Shown in pieces: positions 1,789-63,814 of a stretch of 64,000 bases of DNA. The notes under the pieces were generated by a model. It saw nothing but the letters and a program-made list of their open reading frames with translations, was not told the origin of the DNA and made no database searches. The position numbers and the translations under genes were made by a program. This DNA is from Tetradesmus obliquus (taxonomy: Eukaryota > Chlorophyta > Chlorophyceae > Sphaeropleales > Scenedesmaceae). The stretch is taken from the NCBI GenBank assembly GCA_030272155.1, contig CP126199.1, positions 3,088,501 to 3,152,500 of the forward strand, written 5' to 3'. How positions within the stretch are numbered: position 1 is the stretch's first letter; every line of letters begins with the position of its first letter.

Positions 1789-2787
1789 TCAAGCCCTGAA
1801 GGTCTCCGCTGCCTTTCTCAGCGCGTCCTTGCTGTTGGCCCACTGCTTCTCGTTTGCAGATGCAATGAACAGCAGCGCAATGTCGCCCTTGGTGGTGCAG
1901 GCGCTGTAGCTGTGGGGCCCCAGCGTGCCGTAAGGAGCATTCAGCTCGTAATAATAGTAGGTGCGGCCGTCCTCCTGCAAGCAGTGCGGCACACATCACA
2001 ACACAGCACAGCGCGGCACTGTTACAATCAGCCTTGTACAACTGTGGGGGCCCAGCGTGCCGTGCAGCGCATTCAGCTCATAGTAGTAATTGTTGCGGCC
2101 TTGCTCCTGCAAGCGTTATTGTTGCGTGCAGCACAGTGCATACACAATGACGTTGTTCTGCTGTGAGAAACATAAGCTCTGGTGGCAACAGAGCCGATTA
2201 CCCCGCACCGCACGGCTGTTGCTTGATTTTTAAACCTGTGAATGCGCAAATACCACCACACAGTTGGCCTAGTGTGTGGCTGCTGCTGAAGTGCTACTCA
2301 GCAGAGCGCAACATGCTTGCTGGCGGCGCACCTGCTGCTTGCTGGTTGCTGACACCACGTCATCCTCCTCAATGTATGTGCCAGTGATGTAGCTGCCAAG
2401 GCTGCAGCAGCAGCAGCAGCAGCAGCAGCAGGCAAACGATTGGTGTGACGGGTGGAGCTTGTCGAACCACAGCAGAGGGCGGTGATGTGGTAAAAGACGG
2501 AACACAAGTCACAGGTCAGCAGGTCGACCGCTGGTGCAGCAGCTGCGGCACGTACTTCCGTGCGCATGCACGCACAAGCGATACAGCAAGCAGTGGCTCA
2601 ATGCAGTTGCCACATAGTTGCAGCTGGCCAGCGCACCTGTTGAGGATGCCTTGTGGCGTGCCCACATCCTCGATGCGTGCATCCTTCTGCCTGGTCAGCT
2701 TCACCAGTGGTGACACAATGACTGCGATGCGGCCCTCTGTGGATGACTCAAAGATGACCTCAGTCCATGGCTCATCACAGCGGGGCT

Positions 2788-2855
<68 letters not shown>

Positions 2856-3206
2856 CGTCGTGTCACGGTTTAGTGCTTGTGCTCCTGACACCTTGCTACT
2901 GTTGCTGTTTCATACTGGTTTGCTGGCCTTGCTCTGCTGCTGGTGCTGCTGCTGTGCATTGGCAAATAACAGTTGTCCAGCACTTAGCAGCTGCTCAAAG
3001 GCTGGCTGTTCTCTGTGCCAGGCCCGACAGAACTGTGCATGCTGCAGCTTACCCGTGCTGCCTTTGCATGCGCTGCTACGGCCGCCGACGCTGGTGCCGC
3101 CTCAGGTCAATCTGCTGTTGCTGCTGCTGCTGCTGCTGCTGCTCGTTGCACACCTGGCAATAGTTGCAGCCGAGGTTGTTGGCTGCCTTGCCCGCTGGCC
3201 TTAGTG

Positions 3207-3239
<33 letters not shown>

Positions 3240-3427
3240 GCCCACCTTCCCCACCACACACTGACACACCTTGCAGTAGTTGCCGCTGAGGATGTTGGCC
3301 ACCTTGCCATCCCTGAACTGCCCCGTGCTGCCCTCTGCATGATCCTGCTGGCGTGCTGCTGGTCTTCCCCTTTGCAATCTGCTGCTGCTACTCTTGCATG
3401 CTGCTGCTGTTGTTGCTGCCCTTTGCA

Positions 3428-3459
<32 letters not shown>

Positions 3460-4607
3460 CTGATCCCTTCGCTGCAACCTCAGCTATGCCAAAGACTTCT
3501 ACAAGCGGTATCACCGCTCTCTTCCCCCCGCACCTGGCAGTAGTCGCCGCTGAGGATGTTGGCCACCTTGCCCTCCTAAACCTCGCGTGCTGCAGCTTAC
3601 CCCTCCCGCCCTGCAAAAGCTGCTGGCGCTGCTGCTGGTGCTGCTGCTGGCACTGCTGCTGTGGCTGCTGCTCACCCTGCCCGCTGCTACCTCATCAGAG
3701 CACACCACTGCTATGCCCCGGCCCCATCCCCCCAACACACACCTGGCAGTAGTTGCCGCTGAGGATGTTGGCAACCTTGCCCTCCCTGAACTTAGGTGGC
3801 AGCGCAAAGCGGTACGGCGAGTCCGGGTTGACTGTGCCGGCGCGAATTGCGGGCGTCTTTTTTGAGTCTGGCACGAACAGCACGAGGTCATCTACACCTG
3901 CTGGGGGAAGGTAGGTGCCTACCATAGGCACCTGTCCCGGCGGGCCTGCACAAGCAAACGTGAGAAAGGCAGTGAGAGGCATGTGGCAGTGAGAGTGCAG
4001 TTTTGCTGGTGGTGGGAAGGAGGCGCTGTGATGCACGTGGTAGCCGGAAAATGACTGCAGGCATGTGCTTGTGACGAATGTGAAATGCCAGGCGCTCGTG
4101 CAGGTTATTAAAATGCTGCACTGCACTTGGTGCATCACGCAAAGAGCAGAATTTTGCAGTGGTTCAGTGCCGAAGAAATGCAGCAAACTGCAACACAGGC
4201 CCTGAGGGCGCGGAGGCACCGCTGGTTGTTTGGCAAGCACAGACCACACCAGTCCTGCACAGCTGTTGCCTGCCACCAAGCTCCTTAAGAACGAACAAAC
4301 AAGACATGACATCAAACTACTGTGCAACAGGGCGATCTGCAAGCTGCTACGCGGCATAGCCCCAACCCATGAACTGTGCATGCCCACCTGCAGTTGCTGC
4401 TGCTGGTGCCAGGCCCCACGCTGCAAGCCCTGCAGCCAAGCTGCTCAGCTCCAGCAGGCAATCCCGACGTGACGTTACATCTATTTCGCTGTTGCTGGTT
4501 GCTGCTCTAGTCGTGATAGCTGCTGGCCTTGGTCCAGTGCTGAACTTGGTGCTGCTTGTGGTGGTGCTTCCGAAAGCACGAGCGTTTTGAGGCAGCGCAC
4601 AGCGCAT
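1789..4607 (-). CDS. PPD6: PsbP-domain protein of the thylakoid lumen, PPD6-like
   Basis: Five exons in transcript order: 4388-4607, 3743-3945, 2637-2785, 2332-2401, 1789-1974; phases agree and give 275 residues. Residues 1-45 are a Ser/Thr/Ala-rich plastid transit sequence. A twin-arginine (S-R-R-D-C-L, Arg 47-48), a hydrophobic stretch and an A-T-A end follow, which is the pattern of a Tat-routed lumenal signal. The mature part matches the PPD6 subgroup as I know it: DDLVLFVPDSKKTPA, VANILSGNYCQPRCDEPW, ARIEDVG and a C-terminal ANEKQW segment. PsbP-domain proteins assist photosystem assembly; the exact role of PPD6 is not settled. An in-frame ATG at 4658 would add 17 residues; I chose 4607 because the plastid-like part begins there. 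Introns 2 and 4 carry damaged copies of the neighbouring exon edges. The 5' end faces the hydrolase gene at 5594. Confidence 0.87.
2045..2106 (-). repeat. Intronic copy of the 5' half of PPD6 exon 5
   Basis: A copy of the start of exon 5 together with its TTGCAG acceptor lies about 130 bp upstream (transcript sense) of the real exon at 1974. It would read EQGRNNYYYELNALHGTLG against EDGRTYYYYELNAPYGTLG in the real exon. No donor follows it, so it is probably a pseudo-exon. Confidence 0.8.
2787..2853. repeat. CAG/CTG microsatellite at the acceptor of PPD6 exon 3
   Basis: A nearly pure tract of about 22 CAG units on the + strand, which is CTG in the transcript. It ends directly in the CAG acceptor of exon 3 and so forms the 3' end of intron 2. 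Confidence 0.95.
3156..3580 (-). repeat. Three intronic copies of the 3' end of PPD6 exon 2
   Basis: The last ~48 nt of exon 2 (3743-3790), with its donor site, recur at about 3533-3580, 3270-3317 and 3156-3190, spaced by CTG/CAG-rich sequence. Each copy keeps a GT directly after the repeated exon end. The middle copy encodes FRDGKVANILSGNYCK in phase 0; the first has lost one base; the third is the most diverged. All lie downstream of the intact exon, within intron 2. Confidence 0.85.
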
Positions 4608-5593
4608 TGTGGTTGATCTTGGTTGTAATTGTTCCGTGTGAAGGCGAAGGTGCTTCACGCTTTTCGAGCAGTGCGGGCACCCTGTGTGTATGCGTGGGCC
4701 AACAAATCGTGCTTAGCAGAGGGCACTCGATGCACAGGTCGCTGAAGTAAACATTACACGACAGCTTCGCCGCCTGTAGGCACGGAGAAGCGCTGTCATC
4801 CATTGTTAGTGGCGGGTTCAGGCCAGAACCCTCAACTGCTGTGGTTATGGTTGTCATCATCAAGCCAGACTGTACGCCGCCAGATTCATAACGCTAGTCC
4901 GACAAACGTTTCTTGCTGGTGTTGCTAACATCTGTGCACTGGGCTTGTGCATGCATACAGCCAGTGTATCGGCTTGCTGGCTCACGCAGCGCTGGCTAGC
5001 CGAACAGCACAGCCTGGATCCTGACATGACACACACACCCTGCAGGCTGAATAGTCGTCAAACGCCTCAAACCATATAGATAAACGGTACTTCGTCATGA
5101 CTGAGACGTCTGTAGCAGTGGCCGCGCTGTAGGTGGAGTTCACTGCAGCTGAAGCAGAAGCGAAGGCATCTGGGCGGCCCACCTGGCCAGGTTGGTGCAT
5201 TGACGACGTTGATGGTGCAGGTCATGCTTCAAGCAGGCCACAGGCCTGTTGGTGGCACAGTGAAGGGTTCAAAAAAGGCTTCAAAAGGTGGCTGGAAGGC
5301 TGCACGGGACCTGGTACCGTGCCCGGGAGATCTGTTCTGACTGACCCAAAGTCACACTTCTGCTTGGTCACTCTGCAGCCAGAATCCAGGACTCCTGTGA
5401 ACCCTCCACAGCCTCGCCATGCTCTGACCTTGTTTACCACAGTAAATACACGCATACATGAATCGGGTCGTCTGTGTCACCCGATACCGCACGATACGGC
5501 ATCACCCGCCATCGCCGGAAACCATCGGCCTCAAAGCACACATCGTCGCACTGCAGCCATCAACAGCTGCTTACTCTTTTATGTTTTGTCGTA
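4608..5593. promoter_or_regulatory. Divergent spacer between PPD6-like gene and serine hydrolase
   Basis: About 1 kb separates the two divergent start codons, so both promoters and 5' UTRs should lie here. No TATA box or other motif stands out. A + strand open frame at 5133-5594 covers part of it but has no domain and ends at the hydrolase start codon, so I do not annotate it. Confidence 0.4.
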
Positions 5594-9908: not shown

Positions 9909-12900
9909 CTACTTGTTGCCAAAGCCCTTGCCGCTGCTGGTAGGGCTCGCACTGCGCGTGGCACCCCGCTTGCCTCCCTTCTTCCCACCCGCAGCAGCAC
10001 CTGCACCTGCACCCGCAGGCACCTTGAAGCTCTCACCATTGCCAGATTCATCACCTCCAGCTGCCTCTGCACTTGCCGCACTAGCCGCAGCTGCAGCAGG
10101 TGCACCGGATGCTCCGGATGCGGCTTGCGCCTTCACACTGTCCAGCTTTGTGCGCAGCTCTGCCACAAGCTTCTCGGCTGCCAGCCTGCTGCGGCGCTCC
10201 TCGGAGAGCTCCTGCTGCGCTGACTCAGCGCTGCTGCGGGCCTGGTCCATGTCAGCACGCGCCGCTGCCAGCTGAGCCTCAATCTGCGGCATGCAACATG
10301 CAGGAGATTGATGCCGCACGACAGGGCAGCAGGGTTGATATCATACAGGGCGAGGATGCAAAGGTTCAGTAGGTGCCTGGATGTTGTGCAGGGTACTAGT
10401 GCGATGTTTGGTGTGTGGGGCCGCAGTCTGTGCTGGCTTCCTGCAAGCATCCACCCCAGATCATGCCACTGGGTCATGTCTGGCTCCGCCGTAACCAATC
10501 AAGCACCCCAAATGTGCACAAGGTTGTATCTGACCAGACTGCGCTGCAGCACGCGGCACGCACCTGGCTCAGCTGCTCGCGTGCGCTGTTGCCCTCCGCC
10601 GTTGCTGCCTCTGCGCGCGACTGCGCGTCGTTCAGCTGCTGCTGCGCTGCCTCCAGCTTGGAGGCCACCTCCTGCTGCTGCCCCAGCAGCTCAAACTCTG
10701 CAGCAGCACGCAGCAAATCACATCGCTCAGCCAAACCCAACCAACAAGAAGGGCGATCCAGAATGATGGTGGAATGCAGATACTGCCTCAGTCACCGCTG
10801 CAGCAAACAGCACGCTCCACATGCCTGCCTCATACAAGGTGCATCCGCCTGCAGCTCTTCTCTTTCCTGCCAGCTACACAAACATGCGCGTACACCAGCT
10901 GTCACAACCCTGGACCCCTAGGCGCTCACCTGCGGTGCGGCTAGCAGTGCGCAGCTGCACCAGCTCCCGCTCCGCGCTGGCCAGCTTGGACACCATGTCC
11001 TTCTGGCTGTCCTGCAGCCGCGCCAGCTCAGCCGCGCTGCTGCTGGTGCTCTGCGAAAGCAGGGAGAAGCGCAGCAGAGTAAGCTGTGAGCGACAGCAGG
11101 CAGGGGGGCCATGACAGGCACAGTAACAAGCAGGAGGAGCACAGCAGGGGCAGCCACAAGCCGTCCGCTGCAAATGTGGGTTTAAGGGTTGCATGAGTCC
11201 AGCTGAGCACCAGAAGCAGCAACAGCGCAGTGCAGCTGGACAGCAGCAAGGTGTCGCTGCATTATTGATGGGCTGAACTGTGCCGCACAGCAGCCAGGCA
11301 ACTGCCTCCTGTGCTCATGTCAGCAATCTGAAGTCGTGTGTGCGGTGATACGACCCAGCACATGCGTCTGCATTTGGCATCACAGCTGGCTCATGCATAA
11401 TGCCTAATCACGCACCTGCTCCGCGAGGGCCTGGCTGCTCTCCAGCTGCTGCTGCAGGGCCTGCGCCTGCTGCTCTGCTGCTGCGCGGGCAGCCTCGATG
11501 TCAGCAACGCGGGCCTCAGCAGCAGACAGCTGGCGGGCGTAGTCGGCCTTCAGCTCGTTAACCTGCAGAGACACAGTCAGCACAACACAGTGGCAGATAT
11601 GCCAGTGGGCAGCCCAGCAGCATGGTAGTGGTGCATCAGCGGCAGACAGCTGGCGGGCATAGTCGGCCTTCAGCTCGTTGACCTGGGAGTGAGGCACAAG
11701 CGGCACAACACCACAATGCCAGATATGTCGCAGATGTCAGAGCGCAACCCAGCAGCACGGTAGAGATGTTGGCATTCTGGAAAAGGAAGCAGTGAAGTGC
11801 GGTTCACCCCGGGTGCGGCATTGACAGGTGATGCTGGTGCAAGGTCAGCGGCATGGCAAACAGTCTTTGCAGATCGAGCCTCGTCACGTTCTGGTCTGGC
11901 AGATGTGTTGCATCACCACTGTTTTCTTGAGCCGCCACACATGCACAGACATGTACAACATGCTGCACCATGCCCAGCAGCAGTGCACAGAGCAGCACAT
12001 GCATTCAATGTGCTTGACATTGCAGTTATAGTGAGGTGCCCCACACAGGTGTACCGCATGTATGCAGTGCAGCCACTGCATGTGTGCCGCATGCCTCAAA
12101 GCTCTCACCTGCTTGCCCAGGCTGCTGTTGCTGCTCTCCAGGTCCCCAACCTGCCGCTCCAGCTCGCTCACGGCGCGCTTCAGCGCCATGCTGCTGTTCT
12201 GCTCCGCCTCAAGCAGGTCCCCTGGCAGCAGCAGAGGCAACACAAGCTTATAGAAGATGCATAACAGGGGAGCAATACTGCATAGAGGGATTATCACCTT
12301 GCCGTGCAGGCCCAGCTGTTGAACACTGCAGCCATGCAGCACAACAACTGCTTCATCTCTCAATGTCCTCAGCTCGAACGCACGCACCTGCGGTGATGTA
12401 CTCGCTCTTGATGGCCTCCAGCGCAAGTCAACCTCCGCGCACACATACCTACAGTAAAAAACGTCGCTAGTCTGGTGGCATGTCTGCAATTCAAATACCT
12501 CCCTCAACGCACCCGCGGTGATGTACTCGCTCTTGATAGCCTCCAGCTGGCTGCGCAGCTCGCTGCTGCTGCTGCGCTCCTCCTCCAGCTGCGCAGCAGT
12601 GTCAGCCAGCGCCTCCTTCACACTGCCCAGCTCACTGGTGAGCTCGCTGGTCTGGGCACGCAGCCCGGAGTTGGCTGCCTGCTCGGCACTCAGGAGCTTC
12701 TCAGTAGCCTCCACCTGGGCCTGCAGGGCAATGGTTTGATGTGTGAAGTGTTATGCAACGGTGTGCGTTCTACGCAACAGGCGCTAACTGATTGAAATTT
12801 GCTCAGAGCCACGCATCTGCATCTGCTTGTCTTCTACAATCACTTTTTTTGTTGATGCCGCGCAACAATCACCTGCAGGTTGCGCATCTCGCGGCGCAGC

Positions 12901-15900
12901 TTCTCTGCTGTGTCCTGCGCTGCCTCCAGCTCAGCGCTGAGGCTGACAACCTTGCCCTCAGCATCCTCCAGGTCGGCCTGTGCTTGAGTGTACAGGCTCT
13001 GCAGCTTGGAGGCCTGCAGCAGCAGCAGCAGCAGTAGCAGCAGCAGCAGCAGGTGCTAGGTCAGCACGAAACAGCTGACGGCACATACTGCGCGTGGAAG
13101 CAGCGCAGCAGCTGCGGCCAACGGGCCAGGGCACTGGCAACACCCTGACATGATGTGGAACTGCTGCGGCACCTGTGTTGGCAGCCGGCAGTTCACAAAA
13201 GATGGACAATGTGTCTTGCAGGAAGGTGCAGCACAGCCAGGTACCACACCAGCTAGCTTGATCATGCTTCAAGTACATGGAAGCTGCTTGTGAAGCCCCA
13301 CCAACAGAACAGTAGGGGAACTGACTACAAAACTGAATACACATGCAGCAAAGTACCAAACTCAGCAGCACCTAGGGGTGCTGCACCAAACCCTGCACAA
13401 GGTGTCCACAACGGCATGCAGCAACACAGCGCAGCGCTGCACCTGCGCCCGCTGCTGCTCCAGCTGCGCAGCCACATCATCGTTTCAAGCCATGCCACAG
13501 CCCGGGCTAGGACAGCAGCATGCCAAAACACGACACATATGCATGTGATCAAAGTGCAGCGCCGCACCTGCGCCCGCTGCTGCTCCAGCTGTGCAGCCAC
13601 ATCGTTGTACTCTGCCTCCGCCTGTGCCCTGAACTTGCTGGCCTCCTCAGCCTCTGCTGCTGCGCGTGCAGCAAGCTCAGCTGCCTGCTGCTTCAGCTTT
13701 GTCATGGCATCCTTCATGCCTGCAGGAGCAGCAGCAGCATGCAAGGAAACGGTTGACTAACGGTTGACTTAGTGCCGAGGCTTTGTGCTTGGCTGGATGG
13801 GCAGCGTACTAAACTACCTAGTAGGTGCATGTATCATTTGACATCGACTGCCAGCTGGCAAACTAGAGCTTCGCATACCGTACTTTCAAGCGTACGATCT
13901 GACATGCACGAACAGGCTGTAGGCAAGCTTGCAGGGAGCCCCAATTGCATCTGTATATATGCACATGTGAGCCAGGTGGGTTGCGCACCTGTGCCCTCCA
14001 CCTGCAGGTTGTTGATGATCTCCTGCTGCTCAGCCACGCTGGCAGTGGCAGAGTCAAGGCTGGCAAGCGCATTGGACAGCTGCGCCTGCAGGCGACAGCA
14101 ACGGCACGCAGGGTGGGCAGACATTCAATACACATGCGCCGGCGGCGTCCGGCTGCAATATTTGGTTTCACACAGTACATGGAGCTGTGGCAGCAGCAAT
14201 GGCACAGCATTGCAGATTACCTGTGCATCAGTGCAGGACGCAGCGGGGACCTGAGAGCCTAGGATAGAGCTCGCTGCTGCCACGCCATCACTTAACCAGC
14301 CAGGTCTGGCATCATGTATGCGCCCCGCACCTGTGCTGCCGCAAGCTCTGCCGCCTTGGCGTCCGTCTCCTCGCCCATGCTGCTGAGGGCAGCCGCCTGC
14401 TGCGCCACCTGCGCTGAGGCCTCCTCCAGCATGCGGCGCACCTCGCCAGCCTCCGCCTGCAGCAGCAGCATGAGAGGCAGTTGGTATGCTAAAACACATG
14501 TACACTCAATTGTCAAAGCCCGACAGTGCTGACGCCTCCTCCAGCATGCGGCGCACCTCGCCAGCTTCCGCCTGCAGCAGCAGAAGAGGCAATTGGTATG
14601 CTAAAACACATGTACAATACAATCCCAACTGCAGCTGAACCGTGCTGAGGCCTCCTCCAGCATGCGGCACACCTCGCCAGCTTCCGCCTGCACGGCAGCA
14701 TGAGAGGCAATTGGTCTGTTGAAACACATTTACAATTGATTGTCAAAGCCCGACAGTGCTGACGCCTCCTCCAGCATGCGGCGCACCTCACCAGCCTCCG
14801 CGTGCGCGGCAGCAGAGATGCACGTACATGCTACAACTCTCAGCTGCTTGCTATCTTAGACAATGTTGCAGTTCTGAGGCAGCAGACACAAATACCTGCA
14901 GTTCCTTGAACACACACTCCCCATGGCTTCTGCCGCGACGTGCTCGCTCCAAGTGAACAGCACAGGCAGTACAAGCAATACACCACACGCACGCACGCAA
15001 ATCCACCCCCTGCTTCCACAAGCACTCTGCATAGCTCCTGCCACGACACACTCGCTCAAGCGCCGAACACCAGCAACACAAATACACATACATCACACAC
15101 ACCTGTGCGGCAAACTTTGCGGCGCGCTCCGCCTCCAGCAGCTCCGCTGACGCAGCCGCCTCGTCCTTCATTGCCTCAACCAACCACCATATATGTGCCA
15201 ATCCTGAGGCAACATACCATGCAAATACACGCAGAACCCCGACCTCCTCGGACACAGACTCCCTACGGCTTCTGCCATGCCGTGCTCGCTCCAAGTGTAC
15301 AGCACAACCAATACAAACACAGATAAATCATGCCCCCATCTGTGCGGCAAACTTTGCGGCGCGCTCCGCCTCCAGCAGCTCCGCTGACGCAGCCGCCTCG
15401 TCCTTCATTGCCTCAACCACCCGCTATAGTCCACTGCCTCCTTTCACAAACACTCTGCATAGCTTTACGCTACGACACGCTCGCTCAAGCGCACAACACA
15501 AGCAGTACACATACAGCAGTAAACAAATGTTCTGCGCGCCCGCCTGCGCAGCAAATTTTGCTGCGCGCTCCGCCTCCAGCAGCTCCGCCGACGCAGCCGG
15601 GTCGTCCTTCATCGCCTCAACCATCCACCATATATGTGCCAATCCTGAGGCAACATACCATGCAAATACAGGCAAAACATCTACCTCCTCGGACACAGAC
15701 TCCAAACGGCTTCTGCCACGCGTGCTCGCTCCAAGTGCACAACCAATACAAACACAGATAAACCATGCACCCACCTGTGCGGCGAACTTTGCTGCGCGCT
15801 CCGCCTCCAGCAGCTCAGCTGAGGCAGCCGCCTCGTCCTTCATTGCCTCAACCAGCCGCTTCTCAGCAGCCAGCGCACGCGTGGCCAGCTCAGCAGCACG

Positions 15901-16230: not shown

Positions 16231-16305
<75 letters not shown>

Positions 16306-17363
16306 CAGATGCAGCAGCAACACGTTCATCTTTTTGAGTGCCTGGATGTGTTGTTTGAGCCGTTGACGCAGCTGCTCTGCAACCCAGGCCTTTGTACGAA
16401 CACTCTGGCAAGCAGATGCTGGTTAGGCCCATGTGCTGCTGCTGGCCATTGCCCATGAGCACACTACAGCTGCTGTTCTGCAGATTGCGGCACTTGAAAC
16501 ATGTTTGCTTTGCATGGCACAGCAGTTGCTGCAGCGCGCACCTGCGCCTTCAGTGCTTCTACTGCTGAGCGCTCAGCAGCCAGCTTGTCATCCAGTGCAG
16601 CCTGCAGGAAGCACACAAGCGAGCATGAGTCAGCAATCACGGGCGCTTCAGCAAAGCACAAGCCGCAGCAAAAATGAAGCAAGCTTATACATCCTTTGGT
16701 GAATGCTGCTTGATCTGAACAACTCAGGAGGCTGCCTGCTGCTGGTCAGCTCAAGCAGCTCTTAGTAGCTGTTAGCGGTCCAGCCAGGCCCCAAGCATTC
16801 AGATGCGCGTCGGCATACAATCAGCTGTCTTGAAACTCGCTCAGAGACTGTGACTGTGATGCCTGTCTGCTGGTCGAGAATCTGAAGCCCAATTGCTGCG
16901 GCTGTCTGAAGCTGTCTGCTGGGAAGTGCTTTCGCACCTCTGATTCCTTCTTCTGCATGGGTGCAATGCCTGCCGCGCCTGACTGAATGCATGATGCCGG
17001 CAACTCTGGCAGTAGTACAATAGGTGCACCCACTTCACTACTCTGGCTGCTGTAGCTATCTGCGGCTATCTGCAGGGGCAAGTTGCCTGCTGCCTGTCAG
17101 CTGAAAGGCCGTCAATTCAATGTGGAAGTGGCTGAGCTGCATGTAATGCACATGTGACTGCTGCATGGCTGTCTGAAGGCGAGCAGTGTCACACACCTCA
17201 GTCTCCTTCTTCTGCATCAGCACCACGCCTGCTACACCAGCTCCCAGCAGCAGCCCAATGGCAGCACCAGGGTTGATGAAGCTGCTGGCCTCCAGGTCAG
17301 CAGCATCCACGGCAACGGACGGCGCCGGCTGCACATGTTTGACCAACGTTTGACCACAGGTTT

Positions 17364-19888: not shown

Positions 19889-22178
19889 ATGCAGCAGGGC
19901 CGGGATGGCGCAGGGCCCAGCAACGCGCCCGTGCTGCACCGGCCGGCAGCAGCCCAGCCCGCCCCCTTCCACATCAGCTGCCTGCTGGAGTTCCAGGATG
20001 CCCGCATCGAGGCAGCCTACCAGCACTACATGTACAAGATGCAGCAGACAGCAGACGTGTGCCTCATCATCATCAACGTATTCGCAGTGCTGGTAGCACT
20101 GGTCAAACAATACGCAATGCCAGTCGCCAGCGGCCCGCCCACAGCAGCACTCTACCTGCTGTCAGGCAGCCAATCCCTTGCGCTGCTCGCGCTGCTGCTG
20201 ACAGCGCCAGCTGCATACGCGCGCCACAGAGGGCTCATCATCGGCTGTACACGCATGTACCGCCTCGCAGTATGGCTGCTGTACCTGCGAGAGCCTTATC
20301 CGCCGCGGCTCTTCCGGCGTAACTTATCGCTGCGGTTGTTTCTGCTGTCCCCTGCGGGCGGCAACGTGTGGCTAGCGCTGTTTTATCCGCTGCCGCTGTC
20401 GCTGCACCTGCTGCTGCTGGGGCTGTCTTCACTGGTGGCAACTTGGAGGAGCTCAGCCTTGCAGGAGCCGCTGTCACACCTTGATATCTCACAGGAGCAG
20501 CTGGCACACGCGTACAAGCAGCTGTCACGCTTCTCAAAGTGAGTGTGTGTGACGTGTTGTTACGAGTGTGTGACAAACAGCGTCTGATGAGCTGCGCGTG
20601 CTGAGGCTTGCTGCGATCCTGGTGCTGGCTGCAGCAGCTGTAGCAGCTTGTGTGCAGATGTATCTGGAAGAGTTCACCGGGGCACCACCAATAGAGCAGC
20701 TGTTGCAGCCAGTGGGCAGCAGCAATAACAGCTATGTTACCTCTGAAGCTCAGCTGCAGCGGTTGCCAAAGGTTTGTCAATTGATGGTCATCGGCACCAT
20801 GGATGGGCATGTTGCCAGCTGCAGAAGCACGGCAATCATTGATGCTCATGACATGCCAGTCAATTGCAGCTAGCAGCCAGCAGCAGTGTGGCTTCATGTT
20901 ACTGCTGTTGCCATGTGCGGGTTGCACGGTTGCCTTGCACATGCATGCCTAGTGGGGCTGCATGTGGGGCGCACTGCCCATACAAACATGCGGGTTCATC
21001 GTCACTGCTTGCTACAAACCCTGGTCACCTATAACTCTCTGCTGCTGCCTGTTGTCACTGCTGCTATTGCTGCAGGTTTTTTGAGATGCCGAGTGGCCGG
21101 CTGCTGCAGCGCTGGCCGGCGCCCTCCCTGACAGACGCGGACCGCGTGTGGTGCATGTACGCATTCGTGGCGCTGGTGTACGGCCTGCTGCTGCCGCTGC
21201 TGCTGCTGTTCATCAAAGAGGTGCACTTTAGAGGTGAGGCCTGCTGCTGATTGGCCAGCTGGCAGCATCGCAACATGTGTGTTGGATGTGCCTTGGTGTG
21301 CGCAGCAGCTGTTGCGTATCATGTGTGCGCTGCGTGAGTTCTGCTGGTAGCAGATTGCTGTGTCACCGCCAGGTGCCGTGCGACTCTGCAACACCACATA
21401 CTCTTGGTGCAGCTTCCCTTGCATGCCCAGCACCGCCAGTGCTGACTTGTACTGCGTGGCCTGCTGCAAACTGTACTGCCTGCACTCCGCTTCCTGCACT
21501 GCCTGCATGCTCCACATTGTACTGCCTGCACCAACGTGGTTGGTTTGTACTGCCTGTCCTGCCGCCACTTGTACTGCCTGCACCAACGTGGTTGGTTTGT
21601 ACTGCCTGTCCTGCCGCCACTTGTACTGCCTGCACCAACGTGGTTGGTTTGTACTGCCTGTCCTGCCGCCACTTGTACTGCCTGCAGTCCGCTTCCTGTA
21701 CTGCCTGCGGCCAGCCGTCAGCGAGTCTCACATGAACAGCCTGCGCAACGCGCTGTACAGCATCACCACAGCAGCTTGCTTCCTCACCGTCACAATGGTG
21801 CCATGCGCTTGGAGCCTCGTCCAGCTTGCCTCCCGCTACCTTGCAGCACAGCAGGGCCAGCTGAAGGCAGATGGCGTGCTGTTTTTGTTCACTGTCGTGA
21901 GCTTGGAAGTCTTCATGCGCTTCTGGCTGCTGGCAGTAATGCAGCAGGCAATGCAGCGCGTGGTGAGGCCAGGAATGTTGTGGCTGCTGCTGCGGATGTC
22001 GGGGCCGCAGGCGCGCAGCGCGGCGCCACTGGCGGCGGCTGCGCCAGGTCAGCAGCAGCAGCAGCAGCTGCAGCAGGGGGCGGGCAGTGGCGTGGCTGCT
22101 GGCGTGAGTGCAGCAGGGCTGCGGCAGCGGCCTGCAGCAGCAGCAGCAGCAGCAGCGGCGGCGGCGGCAGGCATGTGA
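19889..22178 (+). CDS. Polytopic membrane protein, family not recognised
   Basis: Proposed exons: 19889-20538, 20606-20771, 21086-21233, 21688-22178; 484 residues. Hydrophobic segments suggest roughly seven or eight membrane spans, for example TADVCLIIINVFAVLVALV, LAALLA-like runs near 20160-20220, LFYPLPLSLHLLLLGLSSLV, LAAILVLAAAAVAACV and VYGLLLPLLLLFI. The tail is a low-complexity Gln/Ala run. The N-terminus (HISCLLEFQDARIEAAYQHY) precedes the first span. The start at 19889 is the first ATG of the frame; upstream codons in frame lack one. Borders of exons 2 and 3 are the least certain: their acceptors (CTGAG, TTGAG) are weak but keep the frame. Nothing identifies a substrate or partner. 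Confidence 0.62.
21517..21672 (+). repeat. 52-bp tandem repeat forming the end of intron 3
   Basis: Three direct copies start at 21517, 21569 and 21621, each beginning TTGTACTGCCTGCACC. A fourth, partial start at 21673 (TTGTACTGCCTGCAG) is the acceptor used for exon 4. The repeat unit thus derives from the intron end and multiplies acceptor-like sequence just before the exon. Confidence 0.93.
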
Positions 22179-27271: not shown

Positions 27272-29077
27272 TGCTGCTCCTGCTGCGGCCTTCCTCGTAC
27301 TGCACCAAAGCCCAAGCAAGCCGCAACAGCAGCCCCATGTGGTGGGCCAGAGGTCCAGTCAGCAGCTCATCGCCACAGCACTCAGCCAGCGCTGGGAACA
27401 TGGTGATGTAGCTGTTGATCCGGAAACACGCCGCTGCGTCTGCCTGGGCAGCAGTGAGGCCGCCTGCTGCCTGCCGCTGCTTCTTGGCTGCCTGCTTCTT
27501 TCCTTTTGGCTGCTGCTGCTGCTGCTGCTGCTGCCTGGTGCGCTGCTGCTGCAGCAGCTGTTCTAGCCAAGCTGTGTCGCGCTCGCATGCTGCAAAGGAT
27601 GTCTCTAACAAGTCTGCAGGCGGTGCAGGTTGCAGTTTATAGCAGAACAAGGAGCACGGATGTATGTCGGTGCAACACTCAACAGTGCTTCCTTGCGAGT
27701 GTGCTACAGGCCGGCACAGAGCAGGGCATGTGTCGCTAAGAGTTCTGCAACAGAGCAGGACACAGCAACGGCAGGTGCTGCGAGTGACTGACTACACCTG
27801 TACCATTTGCCTGAGCACCTGGTGGCTGGATGCAGCTGAATTGCCAGCAGCACACTTTGCACACATGTCACAATGCCAAGTAATCACAGCGTGTGGTTGG
27901 CCAAACAAGCGAGGACTGCTGCCGACGCATCTGCTCCTCACCTGTTGCCTGCAGCTGCTGCAGTTCCAGGTGCCGTAACGTGTGTGCTTCGGCTACAGAC
28001 AAGTCTTTCATGCAGCGTGTCCAGGTGATATGGAAAACCTGGCAGCAGCATCTGTGCCTGCCCAAATGCAAACAGCAGCTCCGGCCTGCTTTTCTCTGTG
28101 CTGGTGGCTTCCAGCATCAGCTGCAGTGCCCTGCTGCTGGCCTGTGCCAGCAGCTTGAAGATGCTGTGCTGCTGAACATGCTCCTGCAGGCCAGCGCAGC
28201 AGCACAAGGCAGAAGCGTCTGCCCTGCTGGCGTAGAAGAGTGAAAGTGGTTGATTGCAGGATACAGCCATATGCAGACTGTGGTGATCGTGCTGCGCCAG
28301 ATCATGCATGTGAGGTGCTGTCAACAAAGGAGGAAAACATAACAGGTACAATGCACGGCTCACAGCTACCTGCATGGAGGCTCACAGGTCGCTGGTCAAG
28401 GGGCCTGTTTGAGCTGTGTGGAAGAATGCCACCAGCTGAGTGACTTGCGGCGCGATGTCGAAGAGGCATGCCAGGCCTGGAGCGTCGATGATCTGCCGCG
28501 ACACTTCCACCACATTCATTGCTGCATTGCGAGAAAGCGGATGCGGCGGCATCAAGCTGATAGCGGACCTTGTCCGCTGCGAATGCTGCTGCTTTGGTAG
28601 GAGTGCTGCTACTGCTGCTGCTGCTGCTGTGCTGCTGGTGCTGGTGCTTCTGCTGTTGGTGGTGCTGCTGCTGCTGCTGCTGTTGCTGCTGCTGGTGGTA
28701 GTGATGGTGGTGGTGGTGGTGGTGCCGCTGCTGCTGTTGCTGTTGCTGCCGCTCCCCCTGTTCGAGCAGTGGCGTGCCTCGTAAGGCGGCCCTTGTGTGT
28801 GATTTGTAGACGAAATTTCAGCATGCAACTCGTTCGCTAAGCGCCGCCCTGCTTTGCACAGAGCAGGCAACCAGTCCCGTAGTTGCTGCGGGCGACGATG
28901 TTCAGCAGCGGTTGCAACGACGCAGAGATGCTGCAAGGTATACGATTGATTGAGGGAATGTTCCATGTTCCCAAGCCGTCGAGTGTTATGTGTTGAGGTT
29001 CTTGCGTCTGGTTCCAGATCAAACAGAGCGCACCGTACTGGCGCTGCCTCGTATGGTGCAAAAAGGCAATAAACCAT
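24739..29077 (-). pseudogene. Decayed paralogue of the neighbouring MYND-finger gene
   Basis: Segments collinear with the gene at 29578-33800 are readable: about 28005-28195 (IFKLLAQASSRALQLML), 26790-27640 (LLETSFAACERDTAWLEQ...), 26398-26738 and 24739-26060 (LQEAYASHQQQVCRSLEAA). Three lesions are visible. Relative to the paralogue a one-base shift lies near 28035. An in-frame TGA sits at 26790-26792, although a small intron there cannot be excluded. The MYND finger is truncated: roughly the first 45 residues of that region are missing after the Gln tract, and only SKSCQQQCWKGQHAPVCKRI remains, in a different frame. The N-terminal part at 28382-29077 contains a Ser/Thr/Asn microsatellite. 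It is either a pseudogene or a gene with a radically altered C-terminus. Confidence 0.62.
24943..25005. repeat. CTG/CAG tract in the decayed MYND gene
   Basis: About 20 CTG units on the + strand. In the frame of the upstream exon they encode poly-Gln; in the frame of the MYND remnant they encode poly-Ser. The tract lies at the breakpoint where most of the zinc finger has been lost. Confidence 0.9.
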
Positions 29078-49639: not shown

Positions 49640-52600
49640 TCACGCAGGCACAGCGCGTGCTCTCAGTCTGTCAGCAAACACCCCCACCGCCTCCGCTGCT
49701 GCTGTGAGCCGCTCAGCAGGCTGCACCAGCGCAAACCTCACAAAGCCTTCTCCCCCGGGACCAAACCCGCGCCCTGGAGCTAGCGCTACACCCGTCTCTG
49801 CCACTAGCTGCTGGCAAAACTGCAGGTCATCCAGCTGCACGCCCTGCGGCAGCTTCGCCCACACATACATGCCTGCAGGGGCGCGGCACATGCAGCGTGG
49901 CCACAGAAGACAGGGGAAAAATGAGCAACCTGTGATAAAGAAAATGGAGAGCTACAGGCTTACAAGCAGGCACTGAAGAGTCACTGGGATTCGCTTTCAT
50001 GCTCACACTGTGTTTCTATATGCGGTGTACATGCAGGGTTCCGTCGCCTGATGCTAAAGCGAGCCACACAGCACATCACTCACATGCCTGGGGCTCCGGC
50101 AGCTGCCAGCCGTGCTGCCGCAGGTGCTGCACCAGCGCTGCAGCGCGCTGCTGCCACACCGCCGCGTAGTCCCTGACGCGCTGCTGCGGCAGCTGCAGGC
50201 AGGCCACGCCCATGGCCTGGATGCCCAGGTACTGGTTGAAGTCGATGCTGGCCTGCACGGCAATGACAGCAGGAGTGTTGCAGGGCAGTGGCAGCAGATG
50301 TGTTGTACAGGCCAGGTGACAGGCTGTGTATGCCCAGATACTGGTTGAAGTCGATGCTGGCCTGCAGGGGAGAGATGCGGAAAGGACGTGTCTGTGAATT
50401 TCAGTATTTGTCTAGTTACACACCTTCCAGCAATGCTGGATCAGGGAATTCCGCCCTTATGTGTTGGTGGCAGCAGCTGCATTGTGGCGGATGCAGGTGA
50501 CCGGCTGTGTATGCGAGTGTTGGCCTCAAATCAAGCTCTCGTCAGCAAGCGCACTGAATAGCCAGCAGGTACAGCAGGCAAAAAGCCATGTGTGGACCAG
50601 AGGTGCCTATTTCAGCTGGTGCTAGGCGGAGCTGTCAAATACCTAATGCCTGACATGCTCAACCCCTGCATTTGCTTGTGCAGTGCACATGCAAAGCCCA
50701 CCAGGCCGCCGTTCGCCACGGCATACTCTAGCACAATCCCCCACTTTAGACCATACCACACCATACAATCTACCCATCTCACTGCACTGCTTGGCAAGCT
50801 GTACAGCCTCAGCCGCACCTTCACTGCTTCGAGTGCTGCTATTGCCTGCTCATTGCCCAGCGCAAAGCCCAGCCTGAAGCCACCCAGCTGGTAGCTCTTG
50901 GCAAAGCTGAACAGCTCCACGCAGCGGGCCAGCGCGCCAGGCAGCACCAGCGGCGACACAGCAGCATCTCTGTCATACACCTGCGGGTGAGGATGAGGTG
51001 CAGCAGGTGCAGAGGCACATGTGGGAGCTGGGCCAGCGCGCCTGGCAGCGCCAGCGGAGGCACAGCAGCATCCCTGTCATACACCTGCGGAGGTATGTTA
51101 TGAGTGTAGGAGCGCAGCACACAAAGGAGCTGCCTTAATGTTGGATGGAAGCTGGCAAGAGTTGTACCAGGCAGTGTAAGCGAAGATACCACTGCTGCGC
51201 TGACGTCTGGGTACCTGTGAGACATTATGCCAGGTGTTAAATCTTTTGCGTTGGCATGCTGCTTTATGCTGCCAAGCAGCTGAGTATATCAAGCAAGCAA
51301 CATTGCAAGCAGCGCTGCTGTGCGTCACACATGCGCCATGCAGCTGACAACACATACGCCACCTCATCATCAGCAACACATGCAACCAGGAGCAGCAGCG
51401 CCGGCTCACCTGGCACACGTACGGGTTGTCGTGTATCAGCAGCAGGTCATGCTGCTCACAGAAGTGCAGCACACCCCGCCAGAAAGCCTCATCAGCAACA
51501 GCGCCTGTGGGGTTGTTGGGGTAGTTGAGCAGCAGGCAGCTGCAGCGTGCTGCTGCAGCAGGGTCCACCCTATTGAGGTCTGCGAGGTGGGTCTCTGGGT
51601 GCAGCGGGATGTACTGTGGCTGCAGCCCAGCCACTTTGACTGCAAGACCAGCAAAGACAGTGAAGCAGCAGTTGCTGAAGTTTGATATAGATGTTGATTG
51701 GTCCCAATCACCACACGCACTGCATGCTGATGGTTATTCCCCGTAAGCTGTGAGAACAGACAGTTCACGCATGGTAAATACAATTGCACAACTGCGCACC
51801 TGCGAGCAATGCTGTATCTATCGTGCGCACTGCATGCACAGCAACGACACAAACGAGGAAAACGCTGTGCAATCCTCCTACCTGCTCCAAAGTAGGAGGG
51901 GTAGGCCACATCAGTCATGAGGATGCCATCTCCCGGGTCTGCAACTGCCATCAGCAGGTGTGCCAGGCCTTCCTGCGAGCCCACCAAGCTCAGCGCTTGC
52001 GTTTTAGGGTCCAGCTTGAGTTTATATGTGCGGTCAAACCAGTCAACGGCAGCTTGCAGGAGCGGCCTGGTGCCGCTCTTGAGGCAGTACTTGTGGCTGG
52101 CTGGGTCATGCAGTGAGGCCTGCAGGAGATGGGAGCAGCGTGCATCATGCCAATGGGCGGGCAGAGATGAGCAGATAGTAGTCGACATCGCAGCACAGCT
52201 CCAACACCACGGCGAACCATGTGGATGGGCAGAACTTGGGTGTGCTGACTGACTTTGTTCAGCAGAGAGCCCTGAAATCAGCAGGGGTGCAATGGGAGCT
52301 CCTGTGCCTCTGTGCTTTAGCAATATGGCTGTCAGGACTTTACAGCTCCCTCTGCTATGAGCACAGCAAGATGTGCATTGTAGTCACAAAGCACTGCGTT
52401 CCAGTGGCAGCAGGAAGCCGCTGCCTGCAGTGCATGTACACAAGCAAATGCTGCTACTGCTGCTGCTGCTGCTGCCGGTGTAAGCGCATGCACAGTCACC
52501 TGCACAGCCTCAAGTGCCTCTGGGGGCGGCGCCACTGCAGTAGCACAACATCAAATAAATTTAACAACCTGCTAATACTCTAGAGTTATATCATGAATTG

Positions 52601-56300: not shown

Positions 56301-58283
56301 GTGGCTGCAGGTGGGGTCGACCACGCCCAATTTTGACGCCATGGCAGGCAACCCACTGGCCAAGCAGATCCCCTGGGACACCAACCCAGCATACCTGGCA
56401 GCATGGAAGGCAGGGCGCACAGGTGCGGCACGCTGCGATGCTTTGCCCCAACTGCAGGTTGATTGAATGCGTGTCAGCACTTGCTACCTTGCCAGCTTTT
56501 CAGGTGTGCCTGTGTGGCCCGTGCTGCGCTGCCCGGGCGAAAAGGCGCCAACTTGCATGCTGGTGGCCAGCAGCCCCACAACTCTCCTCCGATCCATGAT
56601 CAATCGCAAATAAGATCTGACCCTCCTTGCTCATGCTGCGCCCCTGCTTGCCCATCTGCCTGCCGCCAGGCTACCCCTGGATTGATGCAGCCATGCGGCA
56701 GCTATCGGAGTGGGGCTGGATGCACCACCTGGCGCGGCACAGCGTGGCGTGCTTCCTCACGCGCGGCGACCTGTACATCAGCTGGGAGGCGGGCAAGGCG
56801 GTCTTTGAGGAGCTGCTGCTGGACGCGGTGAGACGGTTGACTTATGTGTGTTTGTTTGGTGTTGATGGTGCGGCGGCACTTGCCGCAAGTTTTACAGAAG
56901 CGGGCGAGGCGGCTTTGAGGAGCTGCTGCTGGGCGCAGTGAGGAGCTGGCCACATCACAGTTTGGTGCTGTTGTTTGTGTGCCTTCTCAAATGCTGTTGC
57001 TGCCGCCTACCTTGAGCCGCCTTAGTGCTTCCATACACTGCGTTATGGCACAATGCTAACGCTGCTGTTGCTGCTGTTCTGCTGTGCTGCTGTTGCTGCT
57101 GCCAGGACCACTTCCTCAACGCCGCCAACTGGATGTGGCTGAGCGCGTCGGCCTTCTTCAACCAGTACTACCGCGTGTACTCGCCCGTCACTTTTGGCAA
57201 GAAGTACGACCCAGAGGGCAAGTTCATCAGGAGGTGCGTGACAAAGGGCATGACTGATCCAGCAGTCGAGCTGTGTACATCCTACTTGTGTAATTTGACT
57301 AAGCAAGAAGTACGACTCAGAGGGCAAGTTCATCAAGAGGTGCGTGCTGAAGGGCATGGCTGTTCCAGCAGATGAGCTCGTTTTGCTTCGATGCAGCAAG
57401 GAGTGCGAACCGGATGGCAAGCCAGCAGGAAGTATCTCCTGAAGTGAGTTGCATAAGCGTGACAGTGTGTCAACATTTGGAAATGCACCATGGCAACCTT
57501 TGTATGAATACTTTGCAAATGTTGCGCTTGAAACTTTCAACTGGTTGAAAGTGTGCACTCCTTGTTGTCCGCAGGTTTGTGCCGGAGCTGGCGCTGCTGC
57601 CCACCAAGTACATCTACGAGCCATGGACTGCGCCGCTGGACGTGCAGCAGCGGTGGGTGCTTATTGCTGATGTTTGTTGATGGGTAATTGGTGGGTTTGC
57701 TTGCTGGCTGTTGGCTTACTCAAGGCGCACCTGTTGCAGATTTGTGCATGTACTGGGGGTGGTCCTGACACTGACGTTGCAACGAACATCCCAATAAGTT
57801 TTGGTTTCAAGGAACATCTTGTTCACAACAAACATTGCCGCATGCTTCTGCAGGTGTGGCTGCATCATTGGCAAGGACTACCCCTTCCCTGTTGTCGACC
57901 ACACCACCATCAGCAAGGTCAACATGGGCCGCATGAAGGCGGCCTACGAGGCCAACCGCGAGGCGGCAGGCGCAGCAGCAGCAGCAGAGGCAGGCAGCGA
58001 CGCAGACGGCAGCAGCGACGCAGAGGTGCTGCCTGCAAGCAACAGCAGCAGCCGGCGCAAGGCAGCAGCGGGTGCAGCTGCAGCAGCTGGTGGCAGCAGA
58101 CGCAGGCCAGCTGCGGTAGCGAAGAGGGGAGGTGCTGCTGCTGCTGCCAAGAAGCAGCGCACGGTGATGGACATGTTTGCAGCGGCAGCAGTGACGGCTG
58201 CTGCGAACGGCAACGGCGTGGCTGCTGGCGTTGCTGCTGCGTGTGGCGTTGACGCGGGGGATGCTGTGGTACCTGAGCTGTGA
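53348..58283 (+). CDS. (6-4) photolyase / animal-type cryptochrome (aCRY-like)
   Basis: Thirteen exons: 53348-53395, 53641-53762, 53912-53968, 54363-54435, 54861-54992, 55275-55484, 55692-55958, 56311-56422, 56670-56827, 57106-57233, 57429-57443, 57575-57652, 57854-58283; 609 residues. The N-terminal photolyase domain starts [16 protein letters not shown]. The FAD domain has [19 protein letters not shown] and [14 protein letters not shown]; the two histidines of the (6-4) repair site are present (about 360 and 364), as are GDLYISWE and [10 protein letters not shown]. This places it with (6-4) photolyases and the Chlamydomonas animal-like cryptochrome, which both repairs DNA and senses light. 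Residues about 490-609 form an Ala-rich basic tail with a PIP-box-like QRTVMDMF (568-575). Exon 11 is a 15-nt microexon. Partial exon copies lie in introns 9 and 10. Confidence 0.93.
56890..57339 (+). repeat. Copies of the 3' ends of photolyase exons 9 and 10
   Basis: About 56890-56937 repeats the end of exon 9 (GGCGAGGCGGCTTTGAGGAG..) and keeps a GTGAGG donor. About 57299-57339 repeats the end of exon 10 (AAGAAGTACGACTCAGAGGG) and keeps GTGCGT. Both are downstream of the intact exons. Confidence 0.87.
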
Positions 58284-61109: not shown

Positions 61110-63814
61110 TCAGATGTCCTTTGGAGCGTCCATGAATGCGTAGCGGATTGCAGCCAGGAAGGGGGTGGGGCGGCGCCCAATGTTGGTGGCGCCGCGGCCA
61201 GTGATGCCCTGCACAGCATCAATGCAGCAAGCACATCAAGCAGGGTGCATTGCCTTTACCGCCTGGCCAGTTGAAAGTACCACGCATAACCAGCTGCAGC
61301 ACCATACACGTCAACACACAATCAAGCAGCAGCTGCATCGTGCAGGTCCAGCCAATCATACACGCGTGCTGTCGCCTGGCATGCCTCTGCTTGCTGTCAC
61401 AAGCACTTCTCTTCACGGCGTCAGGCGCGCCCTCTGCACTGCACCAAACATCATCCAGTTCATATGCAAACTGAGCTAGCAAGTTGAGCTATGATTAGCG
61501 CTCACCTGTGCGTCGTGAATGCCCAGGCCCTTGGCGCGCGGCCCCAGCCCTGGCAGTGCAGCGCCGCCAGAGGTGCCATCAGCAGGCAGCACCTTGGAGC
61601 CAAAGTCGTGGTCCAGGAGCACCTGTTGAGCATGGCAGCGACAGAGGCAAGCGCATGAATCAGGCATGCCGGAACACCAGGGTGACATCTCGTGATACAA
61701 GCAGCACCTTGGAGCCATGGTCGTGGTGCAGCAGCACCTGGCAAGCATGGCAACAAAAGAGACAAGTGTGTCAGACAAGTGTGGCAGACCAGCAGACTAA
61801 ATAATATAAAGTTATGCGGGCCCGCAGCACCTTGGAGCCAAGGTTGTGGTCCAGCAGCACCTGTTCAATAGAACAGCAACAGAGGCAAGCGCATGAATCA
61901 GGCATGCCAGAAGACCATGCCACATCAGGTAACGCGGGCAGAACCTTGCGAGCCAAACCGTATGGTTCAGCAGCACCTGCGGCACGACGTTACAAGTTTG
62001 TCCCACAGTTCAAAAGCATGAGGCAAATAAGGCGGTAAACTGGCAGACTGGTGCTCAAAGTCGTGGTGTACCAGCACCTGCTTCCAGCATGTGGCAGCGT
62101 ACACAGCATGGCAACAAGCGGCGGTTGAGGCATGGCAGAGGCAGGCCAAAGGCCTCGTGCCAGTGATGCAAGCGCACACAATCCTTGTTATGCAGCAACG
62201 CCAGCCGAAAGGCAAGACAATTCTGCAGCACCATGCAAATCCCATCAAAACCAGTTGGTCCAGCTGCTAATGCTGCTGCTGCTGCCGTACTGCCTCGACC
62301 CACCTTGCCGTCTGGGCTGATGTCAGCGTTGGGCAGGGCGGGGTCGACCTCCTTGAGGATGGCCAGGCTGGCATCAAGCAGCCGCCTGCAGCAGCAGCAG
62401 CAGCAGCAGCAGAAGCGGCAGCAGCAGCAGCGTGAGTGCAAGCAGCACGCAATATGGTGCTGATGCTACTACTCTACAGGCTCTGTGCGAAACTCTTGCC
62501 AACGCCCACAGCTGGCATGTGCTGCAGCTGTTCACAAAGCCATGCACTACCAGCACTGCCGCGCCACACGCCGCTCACCTGCAGGCCCAGGGGTCGCGCG
62601 CCAGGGGCGGGTTGGGTGTGGGGATGATGCCCGCCTGGAAGTAGTTGACCAGACCCAGCTGCGGCGAGCCGATGTAGGAGCCGGAGCGGCCTGCGTAAAC
62701 AAGGATTGCGGAGTCAACAAGAAGGTGAATAGACAGTGAGACACAGCAGGCACATGCGCATATCAATCACCGTGTGTAGTTTCATAGACATGTGCCAGTT
62801 CTTGAAGTATATTAGCTTACCCTCCGGACGTGTGGTTAATTAAGTGATTGAGTTGTGCGAGCCAAACCGCGCATGCACGCACGCGCGCGTGCGTGCCGGC
62901 AGTCTACAGCACAGAATTCCACACTTTTGCTCACCCTTGAGGGTGGGCTCTGTGAATGCAAACATGAGCGGGATGGCTCCCATGCAGGCGTCAGTGCCCC
63001 AGAAGCTGTTGGCAAACCTTGGCTCTATGCTGGCAAACATACACACCCCATTAGCACTTGTCAGGCGGCGCGCTGGCAACCATACACACCACACTGGCGC
63101 GTATCTACCCTCAAGGGTTTGATACTTGTCCGTGGCTCTGTACATGCACAAAAACCATGCACAAAAAGCCAGTTTCTAAATGCACTCACCCTTGAGGCTG
63201 GGCTCCGTAGATGCAAACATGAGTGGGATGGCTCCCATGCAGGCCTCAGTGCCCCAGAAGCTGTTGGCGAACGCCTCCACGCCCGCGCTGCTCTTCTTGG
63301 CGTCAGTGTCGGCCTTGCCAAAGTGGTCGGTGCGAGTGAGGCCGGGGTGCGCGATGAACACCTGTGTTGCGGCAAAGACAGCGGCAGCAAACATCAAACA
63401 CGCTGCGAACAAGAGGGAAAGCAGATCTAGCCAACGTGTTCAGAGCGGAGCAGGCCTGGGTGCGTGGAGGACACCTGGCAGCACAGCGGCAGTGAAGGGG
63501 CCCGTCTAGCACGATCGAGGTGTACACCTATGGTTTTGCAGATGCACTGAGGTCAAGCCATGCCTGTCAGCAGCAGCTGATGCGGCAAGCGTGCAGCCCC
63601 CTCCTACACGTAACAAGACAAGTAGTGAGTGTCGCATATGATTACTGTGTACCTCAGCCGCCATGCAGCCCGCTGCTGCCCTGTGCGCCTCTCACCTCCA
63701 CGCCGCTGCCAGCCAGGCGTCGCGCCATCTCCTTGCCTGTCATGAGGTTCATGAGCTTGGTGCGGCTGTACTGCCACCAGTCGGAGTCGGGGTACTGAGA
63801 GCCCCTGCAGTCAG

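Follow-up and report, generated by a model that had tools for sequence, protein, structure and literature searches.

How does an intron come to carry copies of the edge of its own exon, and what keeps those copies recognizable? The question is raised by a 64-kb stretch of the Tetradesmus obliquus genome (the window; C9:3088501-3152500, in a genome of 104.66 Mb and 17 contigs), in which a first-pass annotation had described segments spanning exon-intron borders as copied in tandem in at least six genes, and had proposed that such copies survive because splicing hides them. Exon-edge copies in introns, which we call spares, are real, strongly non-random and present on several chromosomes. The account that we favour, with moderate confidence, is a local tandem duplication of about 120 nt at exon-intron borders, whose spares would be hidden by splicing and for which the intact exon would act as a master.

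The window had been selected on account of the finding, and we analysed it as part of a 314-kb sample that also contains 200 kb of C1 and 50 kb of C3, both picked by position alone; the C1 sample serves as the independent test. A self-trained, splice-aware gene finder made for this analysis yielded 58 genes and 384 exons, with the consensus splice sites CAG/GTGAG (donor) and CTGCAG/G (acceptor). Runs with intron costs of 11 and 14 agreed with each other and were used, while cost 8 and other low-cost runs, which over-predicted tiny exons, were discarded. The photolyase model (first 498 residues) aligned to 6fn0 over residues 6-496 (E 1.5e-242), one C1 model aligned with pyruvate dehydrogenase E1 alpha, and PsbP, aminotransferase and aldo-keto reductase Pfam domains were recovered. 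Low-complexity runs were masked for the repeat, edge, cluster, 30-mer and inverted-copy searches (masked bases were scored neutral in the inverted-copy and mid-exon controls), and the pairwise alignments and the next-exon test used unmasked sequence. An edge score of at least 19 was required for the pairwise alignments (exon-spare and spare-spare) and of at least 20 for the counts of introns and genes and for the 39 first-copy distances.

At the latter threshold, copies of an adjacent exon edge are present in 37/326 predicted introns and in 16 of the 52 multi-exon genes. The comparison of exon edges with introns that the first-pass annotation had called for gives a clear enrichment over the random-intron control: donor edges match their own intron in 20/326 cases and acceptor edges in 19/326, against 0/326 and 1/326 for random introns. 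Wrong-side controls gave 1/232 for each kind of edge, and when the same edges were tested on both sides the counts were 30/428 for the own side and 2/428 for the wrong side (30-37 versus 2, of 408-498 edges, over four model settings). The described arrangement, with copies of exon ends downstream and of exon starts upstream, is thus borne out, and the two sides are far from equally frequent. Inverted copies were found for 1/652 edges. Aligned with itself, the window shows 28 pairs of local direct repeats, often offset by ~100-130 nt or multiples, and placing these on the gene models gives about 20 spares, as the annotation had estimated. Its count of at least six genes holds for five at a score of at least 20 (PsbP-like, coiled-coil, aminotransferase, photolyase and 'dehydrogenase'), and the sixth, a membrane protein, is borderline (score 19). 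The proposed enlargement of introns agrees with the median lengths, 428 nt with copies and 281 nt without.

The loci in the window are as follows.

56670..56827, plus strand: photolyase/animal-like cryptochrome exon with a downstream copy of its 3' edge (gene model; 6fn0 alignment without insertion at the junction)
56897..56942, plus strand: spare of exon 56670..56827, with its last ~40 nt and a GTGAG donor 110-111 nt from the true one (repeat and alignment); it has a one-base deletion and two non-synonymous changes
57106..57233, plus strand: next photolyase exon, 3' edge copied twice downstream (gene model; 6fn0 alignment)
57303..57378, plus strand: first spare of exon 57106..57233, 106 nt downstream, with 37 exonic nt, donor and homologous intron start
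57396..57433, plus strand: second, more decayed spare of the same exon, 198 nt downstream
50084..50252, minus strand: aminotransferase exon, 5' edge copied upstream in the gene's sense (gene model, Pfam)
50308..50369, minus strand: spare of the start of exon 50084..50252, acceptor CCTGCAG, 109 nt away (alignment)
50702..50980, minus strand: aminotransferase exon, 5' edge copied upstream (gene model, Pfam)
51026..51090, minus strand: spare of the start of exon 50702..50980, acceptor CCGCAG, 104 nt away, linker non-homologous
3743..3945, minus strand: PsbP-like (PPD-type) exon, 3' edge copied (gene model; PF01789)
3534..3595, minus strand: spare of this 3' edge that has a GT donor; the gene finder took it for an exon
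3270..3319, minus strand: another such spare with a GT donor, also called an exon
3154..3204, minus strand: third spare of the same edge
1789..1974, minus strand: last PsbP-like exon, 5' edge copied (gene model)
2042..2114, minus strand: spare of the start of exon 1789..1974, GCTTGCAG acceptor, 132 nt away (repeat and alignment)
11416..11562, minus strand: coiled-coil gene exon, 5' edge copied (gene model)
11633..11710, minus strand: spare of the start of exon 11416..11562, 120-123 nt away (repeat and alignment)
12513..12720, minus strand: coiled-coil gene exon, 3' edge copied (gene model)
12382..12422, minus strand: spare of the end of exon 12513..12720, GTGCGT donor, 125 nt away, linker non-homologous
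13425..13478, minus strand: spare matching the 3' edge of exon 13568-13719 at a distance of 125 nt; a mini-exon was called over part of it
14413..14822, minus strand: tandem array in the coiled-coil gene, some 3.5 copies at period 115, in which exon-like parts bear splice-site motifs
15002..15860, minus strand: larger array in the coiled-coil gene with exon copies inside it (periods 234 and 428); because of a stop in the gene model the exon assignment is uncertain
21447..21708, plus strand: membrane-protein gene, 98/52 nt repeat array reaching the acceptor of exon 21688-22178; the weakest case
63190..63394, minus strand: exon of the 'dehydrogenase' gene (the first-pass label; no Pfam match), 3' edge copied (gene model)
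62930..63017, minus strand: spare of the end of exon 63190..63394, 83 exonic nt and GTGAG, 92% identical, 255 nt away
61506..61622, minus strand: 'dehydrogenase' exon, 5' edge copied four times (gene model)
61663..62106, minus strand: four spares of the start of exon 61506..61622, splice sites at -115, -238, -354 and -455

The copies lie head to tail with a characteristic unit. In 31/39 cases the splice site of the first spare lies 94-142 nt from the true one (mean 120.2, SD 12.6; the mean excludes the 8 distances >150 nt, which span 182-255 nt), and further copies follow at multiples of the unit: a C1 exon at 101024 has seven spares, at -125, -249, -374, -499, -624, -750 and -863. For the 31 cases the exonic part measures 50.6 +/- 17.0 nt and the linker, the remainder of the unit, 69.6 +/- 20.5 nt; the two lengths compensate for each other (r = -0.79), so that unit length is the conserved quantity. 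The copied exon length ranges over 27-103 nt, mostly within the outermost ~60 nt of the exon, at donors and acceptors alike: when 30-mers were taken at offsets of 0, 30, 60 and 90 nt into exons no shorter than 120 nt, 29, 12, 1 and 0 of 445 recurred in the intron, and a mid-exon control in exons of at least 240 nt gave one match (acceptor-side 30-mers at offset 120, 1/89). The exonic flank past the copied part is similar in 1/34 cases at p<=0.05, about the chance level, and in 0/34 at p<=0.001, which rules out homology concealed there and leaves a sharp exonic edge.

By eye, the seven-spare array (C1 100157-101089) contains about three linker types in the order A,B,C,B,C,A, which suggests growth by multi-unit steps, and a two-unit pattern occurs likewise at C1 22952. 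As a separate observation, only 4 of the 31 first-copy distances <150 nt are multiples of three, where about 10 are expected (binomial p ~0.01, a post-hoc hand estimate); if the deficit is true, inclusion of a spare in frame could be more harmful than inclusion with a frameshift.

The position of the duplications relative to genes is equally marked. Local repeats with an offset of 60-400 nt form 49 clusters in the sample: 39 at exon-intron borders, 3 within exons, 3 in purely noncoding sequence and 4 of mixed placement. An ordinary local tandem duplication or minisatellite-like array would not be expected to prefer borders in this way: in 1000 random shifts the border class had a mean of 16.5 and a maximum of 28, the noncoding class a mean of 18.3 and a minimum of 9, and none reached 39. 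Three other model settings gave 39-41 border and 2-3 noncoding clusters of 49, and the observed border count was not reached by the shifts in any of them. The same holds for the window alone (14/16 clusters touch a border; 500 shifts, mean 5.6, maximum 10) and for the independent C1 sample (25/33 on borders; 500 shifts, mean 10.7, maximum 18; 3 noncoding clusters against a shift mean of 13.1). The one-sidedness of the copies is a geometric consequence of any border-crossing tandem duplication, in which one exonic part stays on the exon and the other must sit on the intron side. The pattern shows that the events are tandem, and the annotation's reading of it as the mark of a filter by splicing falls away, since no other side was possible and the arrangement carries no information on selection.

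The spares themselves look silent, noncoding and neutrally evolving, as judged from their sequences. Exon-spare differences comprise 151 synonymous and 194 non-synonymous changes, that is, 44% synonymous, where 29.5% is expected for random change and about 43% is predicted for a constrained exon paired with a neutral spare (a hand calculation with omega assumed to be 0.1); by codon position they number 93, 77 and 175. Gaps are present in 24/58 aligned copies, with a summed length divisible by three in 1/24, and stops occur in some spares. Among the spares aligned to within 2 nt of the splice site (50/57, a selection that favours kept sites), GT is kept in 22/24 and AG in 22/26, near the neutral-decay expectation. 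Median splice-site scores are 6.73 for spare and 7.04 for true donors, and 5.78 and 6.68 for the respective acceptors. The photolyase homologue 6fn0 has no insertion at either array junction, and the original edge is presumably the one used in the mRNA, to judge by such protein homology.

Exonic parts and linkers are not always conserved together. Linkers are homologous in 29/56 exon-spare pairs (19 loci), with mean identities of 0.892 for the exon parts and 0.819 for the linkers, and at chance level in the other 27/56 (24 loci), where the exon parts are still 0.87 identical. At C1 33614, three copies are 97-100% identical across 36-37 nt with linkers near chance. Spare-spare pairs, in which neither member is under constraint, repeat the division: 14/36 (9 loci) have chance-level linkers and exon parts 0.836 identical, and the remaining 22/36 reach 0.902. 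Chance-level linkers beside exon parts of ~87% identity are not given by plain decay, and two readings suggest themselves, either re-synchronisation with the master exon, by conversion or template switching, or copying of the exon edge without a linker. The fixed unit length favours the former, and by eye the unit distance is alike in both linker classes.

The observations to be accounted for are the unit size, the border focus, the own-side placement, the neutral pattern of the spares and the similarity that exon parts retain next to dissimilar linkers. In the account that we favour, a local tandem duplication with a unit of about 120 nt would act at exon-intron borders on several chromosomes, each event copying the outer ~50 nt of the exon, the splice site and ~70 nt of adjacent intron, and arrays with as many as seven spares would arise from repeated events. 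The spliceosome would keep to the original edge, leaving the spares hidden and neutral and the intron longer. The intact exon, held constant by selection, would be a lasting master copy, and through the homology between it and the spares, template switching, slippage or gene conversion would keep the exon-derived parts alike and the arrays active while the linkers decay. Such conversion could be the reason why border arrays persist for so long. We infer the re-synchronisation step, whatever directs duplication to borders, and a mechanism common to all loci. A bolder form of the idea, which we advance tentatively, is that junctions may be hot spots of transcription- or splicing-coupled duplication, in which the copied stretch would run from about -50 to +70 nt relative to 5' splice sites, and in mirrored form at 3' splice sites, with the exon edge as an immortal master that converts its spares; about a tenth of the introns would then hold a self-renewing reservoir of splice sites.

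The explanation offered by the first-pass annotation is survival under splicing: duplications of ~120 nt would occur anywhere, those inside exons would be purged, and those in introns or across borders would persist. The scarcity of exon-only clusters (3/49), the neutral evolution of the spares and the retention of GT and AG at about the neutral-decay level (with its selection for kept sites) all agree with it, and the part of the claim that stands is that the copies behave as noncoding spares that splicing would hide. Survival alone fails on the distribution: it predicts noncoding and border clusters in similar numbers (shift means 18.3 and 16.5), where 3 and 39 were observed, and we reason that a detection bias from the constrained copy would amount to at most about twofold and that whole 120-nt intron pairs of the observed ages should score well over threshold. 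It also predicts exonic parts of up to ~115 nt, and parts past 60 nt are rare (1/445 at offset 60; the longest is 103 nt). The scarcity of purely noncoding duplications together with the focus on the outer ~60 nt calls for border-focused birth or maintenance, which goes further than the annotation's proposal, and we regard survival alone as improbable. Birth or re-expansion, too, seems to favour borders, given the 19 loci with homologous, hence young, linkers against 3 noncoding clusters, where similar numbers would be expected (a rough comparison, the criteria differing). A more serious competitor, though in our view unlikely, is that the exon edge alone is copied into the nearby intron, by repair or template switching, while the linker is not duplicated. 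It would account for the 24/38 loci with at least one exon-spare pair that combines null-level linkers with exon parts ~87% identical, and for the sharp edge past the copied part (1/34 at p<=0.05). Free insertion would not produce distances clustered near 120 nt, nor the trade-off between copy and linker lengths in the 31 cases, nor, by eye, like distances in both linker classes, and linkers are homologous at 19/38 loci.

The three further possibilities are much less credible. That the arrays are remains of exon segments turned into introns, as in the intron-gain model of Rogers and Hellsten, would fit copies that are tandem, locus-specific and equipped with splice sites, and we give it very little weight: the start of the intron should then resemble the start of the next exon, which it did in 1/20 donor-array introns at p<=0.05, the chance level, and the first spare usually sits a single unit away from its own edge rather than at the intron's distal end. 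On the negative next-exon test we reject that origin. Spares in use, as alternative or constitutive exons or as selected decoy splice sites, could explain why their site scores come near the true ones (6.73 versus 7.04; 5.78 versus 6.68) and why the gene finder calls several of them exons; the codon pattern, frame-breaking gaps and occasional stops argue against coding or selected spares, motif retention is about that of neutral decay, and the photolyase homology leaves no room for an insertion, so that we find such use highly doubtful. Least probable of all, to the point of being hardly credible, is the insertion at borders of a transposon such as a mobile intron element (introner). Introners are reported in 5% of the species surveyed (PMC9860276), but the repeated sequence here is the local exon, and among the matches listed within the 314 kb the linkers hit only their own locus and short or low-complexity matches, with no shared family that could have supplied them.

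Several points weigh against the master-exon account. Pairs with homologous linkers differ by 0.108 in their exon parts and 0.181 in the linkers, a ratio to be expected if one copy is constrained, the other is neutral and decay acts without any conversion, and spare-spare pairs that lack linker similarity have the lower exon-part identity (0.836 versus 0.902). Re-synchronisation is a deduction, and exon-edge-only copying would likewise yield unrelated linkers; we know of no mechanism that accounts for the border focus. Copies within one array are not independent, which weakens the codon, gap and exon-part/linker counts. Splice use is read from protein homology only, and the gene models are self-made and annotate some spares as mini-exons: two of the three PsbP spares are called exons, and mini-exons of 15-49 nt appear in C1 and in the coiled-coil gene. 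Nor are the arrays everywhere. The C1 sample has about one cluster per 6 kb, and at this rate about 8 clusters with offsets of 60-400 nt would be expected in the 50 kb of C3:4000001-4050000, where there are 0 (and 0/49 introns at a score of at least 22). The plastocyanin locus (C4) and an S41 locus of C1 showed no arrays, and at the D1 protease locus (C3) there is a low-complexity match only. An exon of the D1 protease is identical in 61/61 aligned residues (query 62) to the PDB chains 1fc6/1fc7, from Scenedesmus (Tetradesmus) obliquus itself, which fits a green alga of the Scenedesmaceae.

Similar tandem arrays, whose periods are about 90-165 nt or multiples of this, do occur at loci on C5, C12, C14 and C16, several of them by eye at predicted exon edges, and the process may be regional or gene-dependent. 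The window also contains repeats of other kinds: long GCA/CTG-type trinucleotide runs in many places (e.g. 2788-2854, 16231-16319 and 28604-28753), an array of about 14 copies of a 21-nt unit at 30341-30630, wholly inside a predicted coding exon, and a 51-nt tandem duplication at 976-1080 (2.1 copies, 96% matches) outside predicted genes.

Duplications within genes are common. Such duplications are not known to have a fixed unit, an anchor at the exon edge or a decoupling of exon part and linker. In tandem or mutually exclusive exon duplication the copies are kept coding, unlike the spares with their neutral pattern and frame-breaking gaps. A close relative is the RdRp gene of potato, where a tandem duplication over an intron-exon border created a new intron via a cryptic donor (Ma, Lan & Niu 2016, PMC4974935). 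There, as here, the duplication crosses the border and takes splicing signals along; that account concerns a single case, whereas 37/326 introns are affected here, with spares that are apparently skipped, number up to seven and follow a unit near 120 nt. The gain of introns from tandemly duplicated, AGGT-bearing exon segments (Rogers 1989, Hellsten 2011; as described in PMC4974935 and PMC3443670), with similar cases in Drosophila (PMC2891723), shares the addition of splice sites by local tandem duplication with the protein unchanged, and differs in that a segment inside an exon becomes the intron, the signature that failed here. Introners (PMC9860276) resemble the arrays in their genome-wide effect on intron content, in algae and others, and differ in being repeated families at many loci, whereas each array here consists of its own exon. 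Small tandem duplications are known to arise when breaks that have protruding ends are repaired by fill-in (Schimmel 2021, PMC8355091); the passages of that account consulted connect them neither with exon borders or splice sites nor with homogenisation confined to part of a unit. The elements are known (tandem duplication, neutral decay, homogenisation), and their combination at exon edges was not found described: among the matches listed from the open-licence literature there was no description of exon-edge arrays of this kind, which is a weak absence.

The finding bears on two old questions, the growth of introns and the source of new splice sites. Roughly one in nine of the introns sampled (37/326) holds neutral, datable copies of its own exon edge, which makes testable the rate at which splice sites are supplied, how the spliceosome chooses when nearly the same site recurs 120 nt away, and whether homology in silent neighbours can be maintained by selection on a single copy. 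In practice, spares are readily mis-annotated as exons, as happened in the PsbP model here.

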